Part shown: positions 18,214 through 23,779 of the stretch, in pieces
Position numbering within the stretch: position 1 is the first letter of the stretch
Layout: every line of letters begins with the position of its first letter
DNA from: Neorhizobium populisoli
GTDB taxonomy: Bacteria > Pseudomonadota > Alphaproteobacteria > Rhizobiales > Rhizobiaceae
DNA: 64,000 nt
Assembly (NCBI RefSeq): GCF_019430945.1
Contig: NZ_JAHYCB010000002.1
Coordinates: forward strand, 496,001 to 560,000
Direction of reading: 5' to 3'
Notes under the pieces: model-generated
The model's database searches: none
Told to the model about the DNA's origin: nothing
The model's input: the letters and a program-made list of their open reading frames with translations, nothing else
Made by a program: the position numbers and the translations under genes

Positions 18214-18318
18214 ATTCCACGCCAACGGGGCGGCATCTTAAGTCGATAAAATAACAAGTTGTTGTATTTTTAGGAGGTTGTGATAATATTTATCGGCAAT
18301 CATGAGTTGGAGGTTGTC

Positions 18319-20037
18319 ATGGATGCTGCCGGTGTGATCGATATTTTCTTTTCAAAAATGACAATTCCAATGGCGGTCATGACCATGATAGTGGCGATCG
18401 CATGTTTCGGGTTTTCTTTTAAGAAATTCACCACTCTTGCGTGGCAACCCGGTATGTCAAAGGTTCCGATTGGCGCGAGATATTGGACGACATACTATAA
18501 TTATTATGTATCTGGAATTATATATGCATCTATATCGATAATATTGTTTATATTGCTTATATTTTCACCCGAATTGCTTGATTATATATTGAAGATTATT
18601 TCGGGGAAGCTAAATTTGGGGGAACTGTCGATACCGACACAGGGTTTTCCCGATGTCGCGCGACCGATCGTGGCACTGAGTGTGATCTTCGTTTTGTTCG
18701 GAAGCCGTAAAAGCCCATTTCACGGAGTCGAGGAAGGGCTTCGTGGGTTTCTTCAGGATTGCGCATCTATTCCGACGAAAGTGCGATCTGTTGTCAATTC
18801 AATGGTCAAAGCAACATTCGATCCATCGAGAAAAAGCCAGTTGGCCGGCGCTGCGGCCGAGTTCATGTCCGATGCGTCGATGGATGAATGGCCCGAACAC
18901 GTCAAGGGCAAATCCTTTGACGACAAGCTTTACAAGATACTGGCTGTGAAAGCGGAGATCGACAAGTGGTCCAGCACGATGTCTGAGCTCAATGCCCTTC
19001 ACAAAGAATGCGCTGAAGAGTTCGGCCGATTGGACGCCGACATGCGATCGCTTTTTTTGCAGATCGAGAACTACATCGATCTCATTAAAAATAACGCTGA
19101 AAAACATGATATAGATGAAATGGAAAGAGATATACTCTTGTATTTGGATAATATGGAATCCAGAGTGTATTTGCCGATAGCATGGAAGCTTTTTATCGGA
19201 TCGAGATTTATTTCGAGGCGGCGGCAGATATTGGAAAAAGTGGGATTTCTGGATCTTCCTATGACGAAGCCAAGAGTTGTATTAAAGTCGATGCAAGAGG
19301 ATATCTATCAAATTTCAGCCGGATTGCTATTCGTTATATACCCCGTTGGTATTTTCATTGCGTCGGCTTTCTTACATTGGAAGCCGGACAATAAATGGTG
19401 GGACGTTCTATTGATTTGGCCTATGCAATTCGTGATTTTCTTCCTGTCCATCCTGGTGCCGGCGATATGGATTGCCGACAGGATACATAAAGACAACAAA
19501 AATCGCTTTCTGGGTTATTTGATTGCCGCACCTTTTGGATTTTTCGGCTCGATCTTGAGCATCGCCGCAACCCGCGGAATAGCTGACGGGGTCATTTCTG
19601 CCTCGACCGGTCAAGGCCTCGCTTCCGCGATCGTTTCTGCAGGGGCAGTCGCTCCGTTCGGTTTCTGCGCGGCGATAGTTACTGTTACTCTATCGGTACT
19701 TTCGGATATTCCGCGGAATTTTATCGGGCGATCTTTGTTAGATGGTCTGATAACGGCGATCGCGGCCGTGTTTTCGGTCGTTCTGGCGTTTGGTTTTGCT
19801 CAGGAAATTGATCGTCCCCTTTGGGACTTGCTCTGGCCCGATCAGGCCTTGATCCAGCAATTGCCGACGCTGAGACCCCTGCAGATGATAGTGCCTCTGA
19901 TCTCTTTCGCCGGATTTGCTCTCGGATTGTATGTACCTTCCGCCTTTCGCCGATATCGGCAGGGTCTTTCTTCGTCAACGTCAACGGCGCCAAAGCCGGT
20001 ATCGCCCCCGCGGTCAGTCGAGGTGGCATTGCCCTAG
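18319..20037 (+). CDS. Large multi-pass membrane protein with central coiled-coil domain, orphan
   Basis: A 572-residue protein that I do not recognise. About three N-terminal helices (MTIPMAVMTMIVAIACFGFS, YYVSGIIYASISIILFILL, ARPIVALSVIFVLFG) are followed by a roughly 190-residue soluble, charged, helix-rich segment (residues about 145-335), then about six helices (including ISAGLLFVIYPVGIFIASAF and AIVSAGAVAPFGFCAAIVTV) and a short Ser/Pro-rich tail. The first two thirds of the gene are strikingly AT-rich, with many ATA and TTA codons, unlike its neighbours, while the last 100 bases return to host composition. That suggests horizontal acquisition. The ATG at 18319 follows GGAGG; a GTG at 18280 is possible. 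Confidence 0.8.
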   Translation: MDAAGVIDIFFSKMTIPMAVMTMIVAIACFGFSFKKFTTLAWQPGMSKVPIGARYWTTYYNYYVSGIIYASISIILFILLIFSPELLDYILKIISGKLNLGELSIPTQGFPDVARPIVALSVIFVLFGSRKSPFHGVEEGLRGFLQDCASIPTKVRSVVNSMVKATFDPSRKSQLAGAAAEFMSDASMDEWPEHVKGKSFDDKLYKILAVKAEIDKWSSTMSELNALHKECAEEFGRLDADMRSLFLQIENYIDLIKNNAEKHDIDEMERDILLYLDNMESRVYLPIAWKLFIGSRFISRRRQILEKVGFLDLPMTKPRVVLKSMQEDIYQISAGLLFVIYPVGIFIASAFLHWKPDNKWWDVLLIWPMQFVIFFLSILVPAIWIADRIHKDNKNRFLGYLIAAPFGFFGSILSIAATRGIADGVISASTGQGLASAIVSAGAVAPFGFCAAIVTVTLSVLSDIPRNFIGRSLLDGLITAIAAVFSVVLAFGFAQEIDRPLWDLLWPDQALIQQLPTLRPLQMIVPLISFAGFALGLYVPSAFRRYRQGLSSSTSTAPKPVSPPRSVEVALP

Positions 20038-20178: not shown

Positions 20179-21699
20179 TCAGCGCCGTGCCGCCGCGAAG
20201 AACACTTCCGGGCCTTCCACCTCCACCAGCCGTTTCCCCTCGATCTGCCAGAACCGGTTGCCGATGGTGCGTACGAAACTGCGGTCGTGGGAGACGAGCA
20301 GGCAGCTTGCCTGATGTCCCAGCAATTCCGCCTCCAGCGCCTCCTGGCCATCGATATCGAGATGATTGGTCGGTTCGTCGAGCAGGTAGAAATTCGGCTC
20401 GCGAAGTCTCAGCACCAAGAGCCCCAGCCGCGCCTTCTGCCCGCCGGACAGGGCTGAGACCGGCTTGCCCTGCATATCGATCGACATGCCGGCGCCGGCC
20501 AGCAGGGTGCGCGCTCGCTGGTCGCCGATATCGAAACGGTGGATGATGGTTTCGTGCGGGGTGCGCCGGTCGTCGAGATCGGCCAGCGCCTGGTCGCCGT
20601 AACCGAGCACCAGAGAGGGCGTCGCCTTGATGCCGTCCGCCGTCGAGTTAGGCTCGGCGATCGCCCGGCGCAGCATCGTCGCCAGCCGCGTCTTGCCGGT
20701 GCCGTTGCGGCCGAGCAGTACGATCCGGTCGCCCTGGCAGATGAACTGCTGGCCGGTGCGAAACAGCAATGTGCCGTCCGGCGTCTTCACCTCGGCATTA
20801 TCGAGTGTCACCAGCACCTTGGCATGCGTGCAGCGGTTGGCGAGGCGGATGGCGCCGGCGGAGCGTTCCAGATGCGCCGGCTTAGTGGCATCCTCCAGCT
20901 TTTCGGCCCTTTCCTTTAGCTGCTTGGTCTTGGTGATCAGAAGATCGCTGCCGGAATTGATGCCGATATTCTTCAGCTTCGCCGCCTGCTTGCGCAGTTG
21001 GTCGGCGGTCTTCATGTCCCGCTCGTAGCGCCTGGCATCCGCGGCATCCGCCTCGTCCAGCGCCACCCGCGCCGGGCTGTAGGGCAGGGAGAAGACCTGG
21101 CTGTTCTCCGGCCGCAGAAACAGGGTGCGGCTGCTGACGGCATCGAGAAAGGCGCGGTCATGGCTCGCGAGGATCACCGGCACATCTCGCGGCAGCGCAT
21201 TCAGCCAGTCTTCCAGCAGCGCGATCTTGGCGAGGTCGAGATGGTTTGTCGGCTCGTCGAGCAAAAGCACGTCCGGCTCGGCCACCCAGGCCCGCGCGAT
21301 GAGCGCCAGCCGCTGCCAGCCGCCGCTCAAAGCGGAAAGCTGTCGTTCCTGCAGCTCTTCCGGCACCTCCATGCCTGCGAGAACTACATCCGCCCGCCAG
21401 CTCTCGCTGTCGATCTGGTCGGCCGGCAAGGCCTGCAGCACGGCATCCCGGAAGGTTGCGCCAACAAGGGCAGGAGGCACGTTCTGCTCTACCAGTCCGA
21501 CCGTCAGCCCGCGGGCACGGGTAATCTCACCCTCGGTCGCATCCAGCCGGCCGGTGATGCAGTTCAGAAGCGTGGACTTGCCGCGCCCGTTGGCTGCGAC
21601 GATGCCGATCCGGTCGCCGGCATTGACGGTGAGATTGAGCCCGGAAAACAGCGGGCTGGAAAGGATCACTCCGAGATTGCGGAGGTTGAGAATGCTCAT
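20179..21699 (-). CDS. ABC-F family ATPase (ribosome-associated)
   Basis: A 506-residue soluble protein with two ABC ATPase domains and no membrane segment, as in the ABC-F family (Uup, EttA, Vga/Msr). Walker A motifs are ANGRGKST and GRNGTGKT. Signature motifs are LSGGWQRLALIA and LSGGQKARLGLL, and Walker B segments LLLDEPTNHLDL and YLLDEPTNHLDI are clear. The linker between domains (about residues 220-270, KTADQLRKQAAKLKNIG) is charged. ABC-F proteins act on the ribosome; some protect it from antibiotics. The first domain begins almost at the N-terminus. A possible leader peptide lies upstream, hinting at translation-responsive control. Confidence 0.92.
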   Translation of the reverse strand: MSILNLRNLGVILSSPLFSGLNLTVNAGDRIGIVAANGRGKSTLLNCITGRLDATEGEITRARGLTVGLVEQNVPPALVGATFRDAVLQALPADQIDSESWRADVVLAGMEVPEELQERQLSALSGGWQRLALIARAWVAEPDVLLLDEPTNHLDLAKIALLEDWLNALPRDVPVILASHDRAFLDAVSSRTLFLRPENSQVFSLPYSPARVALDEADAADARRYERDMKTADQLRKQAAKLKNIGINSGSDLLITKTKQLKERAEKLEDATKPAHLERSAGAIRLANRCTHAKVLVTLDNAEVKTPDGTLLFRTGQQFICQGDRIVLLGRNGTGKTRLATMLRRAIAEPNSTADGIKATPSLVLGYGDQALADLDDRRTPHETIIHRFDIGDQRARTLLAGAGMSIDMQGKPVSALSGGQKARLGLLVLRLREPNFYLLDEPTNHLDIDGQEALEAELLGHQASCLLVSHDRSFVRTIGNRFWQIEGKRLVEVEGPEVFFAAARR

Positions 21700-21852
21700 G
21701 ATAAATCTCTGGTCTTGCCGCAGAAGGACGGTGTTGCCGGCACGCAGCTTTCAGCAACGCCGCCGTTTGCGGTGGGTATGAAATGGCAGGTGAATACCTG
21801 CCGGCCACGAAGGACCGACCAGAATGAGGATGTGTGAGAAAACGGCCTCTGG

Positions 21853-21927
21853 TCAGCCCTGCAAACGCATCTGCAGGGCGACGATCGGGCCACGGGGCCG
21901 GTAGAACCGGAGATAGAAATTGCGCAC
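21853..21927 (-). CDS. Candidate leader peptide upstream of the ABC-F gene
   Basis: A 24-codon frame starting with GTG at 21927, with a strong AGGAGG five bases upstream, encoding MRNFYLRFYRPRGPIVALQM followed by RLQG and stop. The last codons lie in a strong hairpin, GCCCTGCA/TGCAGGGC (21856-21879), and a second perfect hairpin GGCAGGT/ACCTGCC lies at 21785-21802. The peptide stop is 153 bases before the ABC-F start. The layout resembles ribosome-mediated attenuation of antibiotic-response genes; this role is inferred. Confidence 0.6.
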   Translation of the reverse strand: MRNFYLRFYRPRGPIVALQMRLQG

Positions 21928-21960
21928 GTGACCCTCCTTTCTCTGATGAGCACGGGAGGT

Positions 21961-21989
21961 GAAATATCATCGCACCCGGCGGATTGCAA
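21961..21989 (-). promoter_or_regulatory. Predicted promoter for leader peptide and ABC-F gene
   Basis: On the minus strand TTGCAA (21989-21984), a 17-base spacer and TATTTC (21966-21961) would start transcription near 21954, about 27 bases before the leader-peptide GTG. Confidence 0.4.
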
Positions 21990-23035: not shown

Positions 23036-23473
23036 TCATTCCGGTGGCCGCTGGACCGAAACATCCAACGGCTCGAAGTGGCGGATATTGTTTGTAACGA
23101 CAGTCAATCCGTGTGCTTTTGCGGTGGCGGCGATCATCACATCGGCCAGATCCTGCGGGGTTCCGCTTGCGTCCGCGTCGTCAGCCATCTCGCCTGCAAT
23201 CCTCGCTGCATCGGCATCGAAGGGCAGGATGCGATCTTTAAATGTTGAACCGATGCCATCAAGCCAGTCGGCAAGCTTCGCGGCGCGCTCTTGGCCGCCT
23301 TTGCGATCAAGCTTTCGGATGCCGCGCTCAATTTCCGCGATGGTGATCGCTGCGATATAGAGCCGCCCGGCTGCGCCTTCGGTTATTATCCAGTCACGCA
23401 AGGCAGTCGAAGGCTCATATCTGCCAGGCGCCAAGCGGGAAATGACGTTCGTGTCGAGAAGATACCCACTCAC
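23036..23473 (-). CDS. VapC/FitB-type PIN-domain toxin
   Basis: A 145-residue PIN-domain ribonuclease toxin. The acidic catalytic residues are visible in YLLDTNVIS (Asp7), TIAEIERGIRKL, and the C-terminal PQDLADVMIAATAKAHGLTV, with VVTNNIRHFE at the end of the fold. It cleaves RNA when released from its antitoxin. Its ATG overlaps the antitoxin stop codon by four bases, so the two are translationally coupled. The conserved order antitoxin then toxin supports a functional module. Confidence 0.92.
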   Translation of the reverse strand: MSGYLLDTNVISRLAPGRYEPSTALRDWIITEGAAGRLYIAAITIAEIERGIRKLDRKGGQERAAKLADWLDGIGSTFKDRILPFDADAARIAGEMADDADASGTPQDLADVMIAATAKAHGLTVVTNNIRHFEPLDVSVQRPPE

Positions 23474-23721
23474 AGGTCGATATCACGCATAGTCGAACGA
23501 TCCCGTTCGAACTCGATTCCGCCGGGAAACGACATGAGATACTCGCCGAAATTCAACTGGGCTTTGCCGAGTGCCTTTTGGGCGGCCTCCGCAGCTTCGA
23601 TGCTGACCAACGCAGCCACTGGCTTGCCGTGACGGGTAATCGTCACGATCTCGCCCTTCAACGCCTGATCGACAAGAGTGGAGAAACCGGCCTTTGCCTC
23701 GCGGAGATTGACTGTCGACAT
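23470..23721 (-). CDS. Phd/YefM-family antitoxin
   Basis: An 83-residue antitoxin. The N-terminal Phd/YefM DNA-binding fold is seen as MSTVNLREAKAGFSTLVDQA and VTITRHGKPVAALVSIE, and the C-terminal part (NFGEYLMSFPGGIEFERDRS) would wrap the VapC toxin. The ATG at 23721 is preferred to one 21 bases upstream because AGAGG lies eight bases before it. A 22-bp palindrome just upstream is the likely autoregulatory operator. Confidence 0.9.
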   Translation of the reverse strand: MSTVNLREAKAGFSTLVDQALKGEIVTITRHGKPVAALVSIEAAEAAQKALGKAQLNFGEYLMSFPGGIEFERDRSTMRDIDL

Positions 23722-23732
23722 GGCATATACCT

Positions 23733-23779
23733 CTGTAGTCACATGTGACTACAGTAGGGGCTGGCCTTGCCGATTTCAA
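23733..23779 (-). promoter_or_regulatory. Promoter and operator of the Phd/VapC module
   Basis: A perfect 22-bp palindrome, arm CTGTAGTCACA (23733-23743) and its complement to 23754, overlaps the -10 box of a promoter read on the minus strand: TTGAAA (23779-23774), 17 bases, TACTGT (23756-23751). Toxin-antitoxin operons of this class repress themselves at such sites. Confidence 0.8.

Follow-up and report, generated by a model that had tools for sequence, protein, structure and literature searches.

Introduction

The leaders of erm genes combine a strong ribosome site with a stall of the ribosome near residue 10; in these leaders the pairings 1:2 and 3:4 exclude the pairing 2:3, and the downstream ribosome site can be masked. 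The leader described here precedes an ABC-F gene in a stretch of 64,000 nucleotides from Neorhizobium populisoli (the window, to which all positions refer). It resembles the ermC leaders in that it is short, has a strong ribosome site, an early stall (which is inferred in our case), and, by computation, mutually exclusive pairings and a masked ribosome site. It differs from erm in that the controlled gene codes for an ABC-F protein and not for a methyltransferase, in its occurrence in Alphaproteobacteria, in its peptide and in the placement of the first hairpin (H1) inside the last codons of the leader. We suggest that the locus works as an ermC-like attenuator, in which ribosomes stalled by an antibiotic switch on an ABC-F that protects ribosomes, and we put the probability of this reading at roughly three in four.

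Several other leaders bear comparison. The vmlR leader of Bacillus subtilis involves uORF stalling, a conditional intrinsic terminator and NusG-dependent pausing (PMC9226507). Stalling on a uORF controls an ABC-F resistance factor there, as we infer for our case; vmlR, however, comes from another phylum, and no terminator-like site was found between positions 21600 and 22200 of the window. In Streptococci, MsrDL (MYLIFM) and MefAL are the leader peptides of msrD and mefA in an ABC-F operon with a Rho-independent terminator, and MefAL as well as ErmDL carry an Arg/Lys-X-Arg/Lys motif (PMC10314930). This motif resembles the R-x-R found here and the early arrest site is likewise reminiscent of macrolide leaders, whereas msrD belongs to Streptococci and is controlled by transcription attenuation. 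Regulatory uORFs occur in Gram-negatives as well. The uORF of the Escherichia coli topAI-yjhQ operon senses ribosome-targeting antibiotics (PMC12121999), but this is a toxin-antitoxin operon and not an ABC-F gene. In rhizobia, the mRNA of a DUF1127 gene of S. meliloti likewise has a uORF in its leader which responds to translation inhibitors, and a mechanism via C-rich first codons and probably Rho has been proposed (PMC12218461); in contrast, our leader has a conserved peptide and a predicted masking of the ribosome site.

Finally, upstream ORFs of Alphaproteobacteria encode RAPP-like arrest peptides such as ApdP; the families described stand before secDF, secA or yidC and include localization signals (PMC10987492, PMC12992588). 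The likeness lies in Arg-Gly/Ala-Pro near the arrest site of an upstream ORF from the same class. Here, however, R-G-P-V/I stands at about residue 12 of frames of mostly 20–24 residues that precede an ABC-F gene. We considered membership in the RAPP-like group and rejected it, since the motif is not RAPP, RGPP, RAGP or a close variant near the C-terminus of a frame before a sec or yidC gene.

Antibiotic-induced control of resistance genes by leader peptides has been described mainly for Gram-positives, as two reports on S. meliloti state (PMC7298713, PMC12218461). We recognised no description of the present leader/ABC-F system in the open-access literature searched; the statement of a first-pass annotation of this DNA that no case is described in this group holds within that literature only. 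The analysis below supports a leader of a known attenuator type that recurs across Alphaproteobacteria. If our reading is true, such a class-wide version with a new conserved peptide would mean that sensors based on ribosome stalling have a long history and a wide distribution among Gram-negatives of soil and plants, a large ABC-F subfamily would be marked as likely ribosome-protection factors and a directly testable arrest motif would be at hand.

Leader frame and ABC-F gene

The features of the locus are collected in Table 1. The first-pass annotation had pointed to a frame of 24 codons that starts with GTG, has AGGAGG five bases upstream and ends inside a hairpin, and reading the sequence confirms this; the spacer is GTCAC. 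From the leader stop to the ABC-F start codon there are 153 nt, and the stretch 21700–21960 folds better than 200 of 200 dinucleotide shuffles (z −4.6). The second perfect hairpin, which had been noticed as well, is indeed present in the window, but its sequence is not conserved and relatives carry other sequence at that place. An Rfam scan of the window returned a tRNA as its sole match and gave no match at the gathering score for the leader region. The ABC-F gene is accessory in the genus: of 57 genomes searched, 11 have it. The leader frame is no chance ORF, since it stands before the gene in all 11 of these genomes, typically as VHNFYFRYYRTRGPVDALQMRLQG, and also far beyond the genus.

Table 1. 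Positions of the leader, the hairpins, the putative switch elements and the ABC-F gene in the window
Feature	Position	Strand	Basis
Leader Shine-Dalgarno, AGGAGG	21933..21938	−	read from sequence
Leader ORF, 24 codons, GTG (21927) to TGA (21855–21853), VRNFYLRFYRPRGPIVALQMRLQG	21853..21927	−	sequence and homologues 5′ of the same ABC-F
Presumed arrest motif R-P-R-G-P, leader codons 10–14	21886..21900	−	hairpin-anchored counts, synonymous codons
Hairpin H1 (element 1 and start of element 2), leader codons 17–24, GCCCTGCAGATGCGTTTGCAGGGC, 24 nt	21856..21879	−	inverted repeat; relatives
Element 2, AGGGCUGACCAGAG	21847..21860	−	complementary to element 3; 1 of 100 shuffles does as well (L006)
Element 3, UUCUGGUCGGUCCU	21811..21824	−	pairs with element 2 or element 4
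Second perfect hairpin, GGCAGGTATTCACCTGCC	21785..21802	−	sequence; relatives differ here
Element 4, AGACCAGAGA, ABC-F ribosome-binding region	21706..21715	−	complementary to element 3; 4 of 100 shuffles do as well (L006)
ABC-F ATPase gene, 506 aa, ATG at 21699	20179..21699	−	NCBIfam best match, predicted fold

The best NCBIfam match of the ABC-F protein is NF000355 (ribosomal protection-like ABC-F) with 289.8 bits, which is below the cut-off of 380. In Pfam only ABC_tran and general ATPase models match; the linker model that is usual for ABC-F proteins does not, though a two-helix linker is predicted. The predicted structure (mean pLDDT 85, from 12 sequences) has linker helices at residues 207–249 and 252–276, and in this model the protein meets the ABC-F fold with two ABC domains and a long two-helix linker. 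Foldseek places PoxtA and VmlR2 on top, with human ABCF1, YbiT, EttA and YheS close behind. As the fold is shared with housekeeping ABC-F proteins it is not decisive for the resistance type. The protein is probably a ribosome-protection factor, with protection and resistance both being inferred.

Conservation of the leader in Alphaproteobacteria

ABC-F homologues were found in 56 of 297 genomes of the family, in 62 of 397 of the order and in 14 of 385 of a class sample; named genomes were also searched and the five closest loci (L030–L034) used. A phylum sample yielded 25 positive genomes out of 398, all 25 from Alphaproteobacteria. Our comparison set consists of 135 upstream regions of this ABC-F subfamily, 133 of them distinct. 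Left out were G551 and G997, where the gene is cut off or partial, and the hits new in the phylum sample (including G1286 and G1313). The three phylum-sample hits that were inspected have relaxed leaders (L258, L260 and L261).

The strict motif R-x-R-G-P-[V/I]-x-A is present in 87 of the 133 distinct regions, never on the antisense strand and in none of five shuffled sets. Counts anchored on the strict peptide motif are partly circular and the hairpin-anchored ones are the fair ones. H1 itself was found in 125 of the 133 regions as compared to 0–1 in three shuffled sets. Here the shuffles are the control; the antisense count, also 125, is none because the hairpin is self-complementary. Anchored on H1, 122 of these 125 regions carry G-P-x-x-A-[L/P] in frame with it, and the residue counts are 104 for the first R, 91 for the second R and 123 each for G and P, so that the second Arg is absent in 34.

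A leader profile anchored 128 of the 135 regions. It found no leader in the other seven (L018, L029, L184, L187, L192, L213 and L215), of which L215 has a divergent version. The tests on 121 UTRs described below further exclude L196, L028, L017, L134, L214 and two duplicates. Among the 128 anchored leaders, 76 have seven bases matching AAAGGAGGTGAT at the ribosome site and 118 at least five, and the frame is 20–24 residues long in 111. Strict leaders precede the ABC-F gene in 16 families (counted by family handle). Between clades the sequences diverge while the layout of leader, hairpin and switch stays. A lack of conservation of the peptide or its ribosome site in relatives would have refuted the attenuator; ribosome site, peptide core, hairpin and switch layout all recur. 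The peptide had also been characterised as rich in Arg and aromatics. What is conserved of this is the core R-x-R-G-P-V and not a general richness in these residues; the leaders as a group are rich in His and Arg.

Specificity of the leader motif

We searched the 297 family genomes for the strict motif with a degenerate DNA pattern and obtained 88 matches in 80 genomes, as compared to 44 matches for a backward control pattern. By position 34 of the 88 matches lie before this ABC-F gene, namely 33 and one more before the shortened ABC-F of G572. All of the remaining 54 were checked and none is followed by H1, with the same check being positive for 11 of 11 known leaders. Thus, no strict-motif leader was seen before another gene in these genomes. 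The genome-wide search covers the strict motif only and excludes relaxed ones.

Out of 75 other ABC-F loci three were skipped for too little upstream DNA, and the strict motif was found in none of the other 72. These loci are distant (26–34% identity) and mostly from other classes, and therefore test subfamily and class together. A single H1-like match among the other ABC-F loci lies directly 3′ of the stop of the upstream gene; we rejected it as probably the terminator of that gene.

Competing pairings and simulated ribosome positions

In the UTRs element 2 commonly reads GGGCUGACCAG and follows directly after H1, element 3 reads CUGGUCUGCCC and element 4 AGACCAGAGA. In 69 of the 121 UTRs no more than 5 of 100 shuffles reach the 2:3 score, and the same holds for the 3:4 duplex in 67. 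The elements differ together between clades with the layout unchanged: L023, L166, L168–L170 and L172 combine GGCUGAC with GUCAGCC and GUCUCAUC (or its G-U version) with GAUGAGAC or a near version, and L020, L024, L025 and L139 have GAUC versions. Four cases of an A in element 3 each go along with a U in element 2 (Fisher p 0.0002). This comparison covers the 85 of the 121 UTRs that fit simple patterns; few lineages are involved and the value is not tree-corrected. The signal has its limits. Perfect 3:4 runs are above the control (6.50 versus 5.23) but perfect 2:3 runs barely so (5.51 versus 5.29 shuffled), and the 2:3 signal depends on tolerating a UU mismatch. When element 4 was swapped between sequence classes, the native one beat at least 90% of the swaps in only 42 of 121 UTRs. 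For the set of 121 UTRs we thus find, by computation only, mutually exclusive pairings one of which masks the ABC-F ribosome site.

We then simulated ribosome positions by keeping the footprint single-stranded in silico and computed how much energy the ABC-F site needs to open. With the ribosome at R-x-R this energy falls by at least 1 kcal/mol in 72 of 121 UTRs and increases in 10. With the ribosome at the leader stop it falls in 14 and increases in 57, and for the leader start the counts are 22 and 14. In a scan along the P-site codons, counted from the first R and covering 61 of the 121 UTRs, the energy changes on average by −0.25 to −0.45 kcal/mol at codons −6 to −3, by about −1.5 to −2.4 kcal/mol at codons 0 to +8 and by 0 to +0.7 kcal/mol at codons +10 to +12. 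The responsive stretch is wider than the motif, which is located at its front.

The window itself is less clear-cut than the set. In its minimum-energy fold the partner of the ABC-F site is a stretch of leader codons and not element 3, and opening is not stall-specific, as it costs 8.8 kcal/mol in the free UTR, 3.0 with the stalled ribosome and 3.2 with a ribosome at the start. The window alone would therefore not prove a stall effect, since the start-positioned ribosome opens the site equally well. In one relative (L007) the simulated stall even makes opening harder (8.1 to 9.7).

Proposed mechanism

The first-pass annotation had suggested ribosome-mediated attenuation by leader and hairpins, and the conserved leader, the hairpin, the competing pairings and the simulated opening by a stalled ribosome speak for it. 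We suggest that it operates in the following steps, in which translation of the leader, the stall and its dependence on a drug are inferred. Without drug, ribosomes would complete the leader fast and H1 (1:2) would form. Element 3 would then pair with element 4, the ABC-F ribosome-binding region, and little ABC-F would be made. In the presence of an antibiotic that acts at the peptidyl transferase centre or in the exit tunnel, the ribosome would stall at R-x-R-G-P (codons 10–14) and get in the way of the 5′ side of H1. The 3′ side, now free, could together with the next bases (element 2) capture element 3, the ABC-F site would open and the ABC-F protein made upon induction might protect the ribosomes.

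Control is in our view probably mainly translational and not by an intrinsic terminator, though the translational part is inferred. Instead, the stalled or moving ribosome on the leader could determine whether transcription terminates, intrinsically or through Rho, before the ABC-F gene is reached. This has precedent, as both VmlR and MsrD are ABC-F proteins under transcription attenuation (PMC9226507, PMC10314930) and the S. meliloti uORF gives probably Rho-dependent attenuation of the DUF1127 gene (PMC12218461). At our locus, however, no terminator-like site lies between 21600 and 22200, U runs occur in only 23 of 121 UTRs and the partner of element 3 sits right at the ABC-F ribosome site. 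We therefore regard termination as the decisive step as rather unlikely; Rho-dependent control is not excluded.

The putative arrest motif

For the ermC-like attenuator that we prefer, our first guess at the inducing drug, made by analogy from the R-x-R motif, is one of the macrolide type. A plain +X+ macrolide motif cannot account for every leader, however, since the second Arg is missing in 34 of 125 leaders; the strict motif is confined to 87 of 133 regions. Positions 3 and 6 of the motif (leader codons 12 and 15; 21894–21892 and 21885–21883) change together across relatives. An R at position 3 is combined with V or I at position 6 in 91 of 91 leaders, but a non-R residue in only 10 of 34 (Fisher p 4e-18, not tree-corrected), and in the other 24 position 6 is D, N or another residue. 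The non-R leaders are scattered in a quick tree. Judged from these sequences, the joint change hints at two arrest codes. It is possible, though we put this forward only tentatively, that the leaders form a class-wide drug-sensing arrest peptide with the core x-[QT]-[R or H/Y/F/C]-G-P-[V or D/N]-x-A-L and two interchangeable arrest codes; its stalling chemistry would then be new and tied to Gly-Pro instead of copying +X+, and tuned to exit-tunnel inhibitors of the soil.

The arrest might also need no drug. A RAPP/RGPP-like or SecM-like arrest at R-G-P-V, relieved by the ABC-F protein or another factor, would sense general translation trouble or the ABC-F level. Such an arrest fits the finding that no other pair is as constant as Gly-Pro (123 of 125 for each residue), whereas the second R is kept in only 91. 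RGPx versions appear in uORFs that cluster with ApcA (PMC10987492; for RGPP see PMC12992588) and MsrD lowers its own expression (PMC10314930). Neither RxPP nor RxGP, however, is present in our leaders and the downstream gene codes for an ABC-F protein and not for a localization factor. Moreover, the site is only about 10–12 residues away from the start. Such a short distance is typical of drug-dependent leaders. In our view an arrest without drug is unlikely.

Constraint on peptide and RNA

The leader seems to be under two kinds of constraint. Anchored on H1, pN/pS over six codons is 0.39 in the leader frame versus 1.21 and 1.37 in the other frames, and the codons for Arg, Gly, Pro and Val vary synonymously at their third bases. 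Over nine codons the leader frame is open in 125 of 125 leaders. This says little, as the other frames are open in 121 and 109. Within the H1 codons pN/pS is 0.99. These ratios, like the Fisher values, carry no correction for relatedness. We read the opening part of the leader as being under peptide-level constraint and its last third, H1, as being constrained at the RNA level.

H1 is also kept where the frame stops inside the hairpin, for example in L032, L205 and L207–L210, and it shows compensatory changes from GCCCTG/CAGGGC to GCCCCG/CGGGGC or GCCCCA/TGGGGC. The search pattern demands GCCC/GGGC arms and two matching inner pairs. Since paired arms are thus required by the pattern itself, compensation was judged from pair counts: pairs 5, 8, 9 and 10 exceed all of 200 shuffles, and pairs 1–4, 6 and 7 vary too little or are not above the 200 shuffles.

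Selection on the peptide alone cannot separate stalling from a small functional protein, with the hairpins acting as mRNA stability elements and without any stall-dependent switch. But the C-terminal third of the leader shows constraint on the RNA and not on the peptide (pN/pS 0.99), and it is shortened where the frame stops inside H1; moreover, the pairing of element 3 with the ribosome site has no place in such a scheme. We thus consider a small protein very unlikely. A starvation attenuator, in which want of charged tRNA stalls the ribosome at the Arg and His codons of these His- and Arg-rich leaders, can practically be dismissed because Gly-Pro is more constant than either Arg and ABC-F is no amino acid pathway gene.

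Plasmid loci and genomic surroundings

The ABC-F gene is present in 12 plasmid records, and all six that were examined have the leader. Four of them have the strict form, namely Ketogulonicigenium vulgare, Pararhizobium sp. A13 and the plant symbionts Sinorhizobium meliloti M162 and M270. The other two have relaxed versions, R-N-C-G-P-V in Gemmobacter fulvus and R-T-H-G-P-D in Shinella sp. PSBB067. In the four plasmid records with annotation the annotated neighbours differ; leader and ABC-F gene thus stay together amid changing surroundings.

At one further locus (L246 in G572) the leader stands before an ABC-F frame which lacks about residues 119–235, with no stop codon. In the window, a 585-aa ORF (18280–20037, plus strand) adjoins the ABC-F gene; it contains hydrophobic stretches as judged by eye, and neither Pfam nor NCBIfam gives a match to it at E 0.001. 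At 23036–23742 on the minus strand Pfam identifies a Phd/YefM antitoxin followed by a PIN-domain protein, likely a type II toxin-antitoxin pair.
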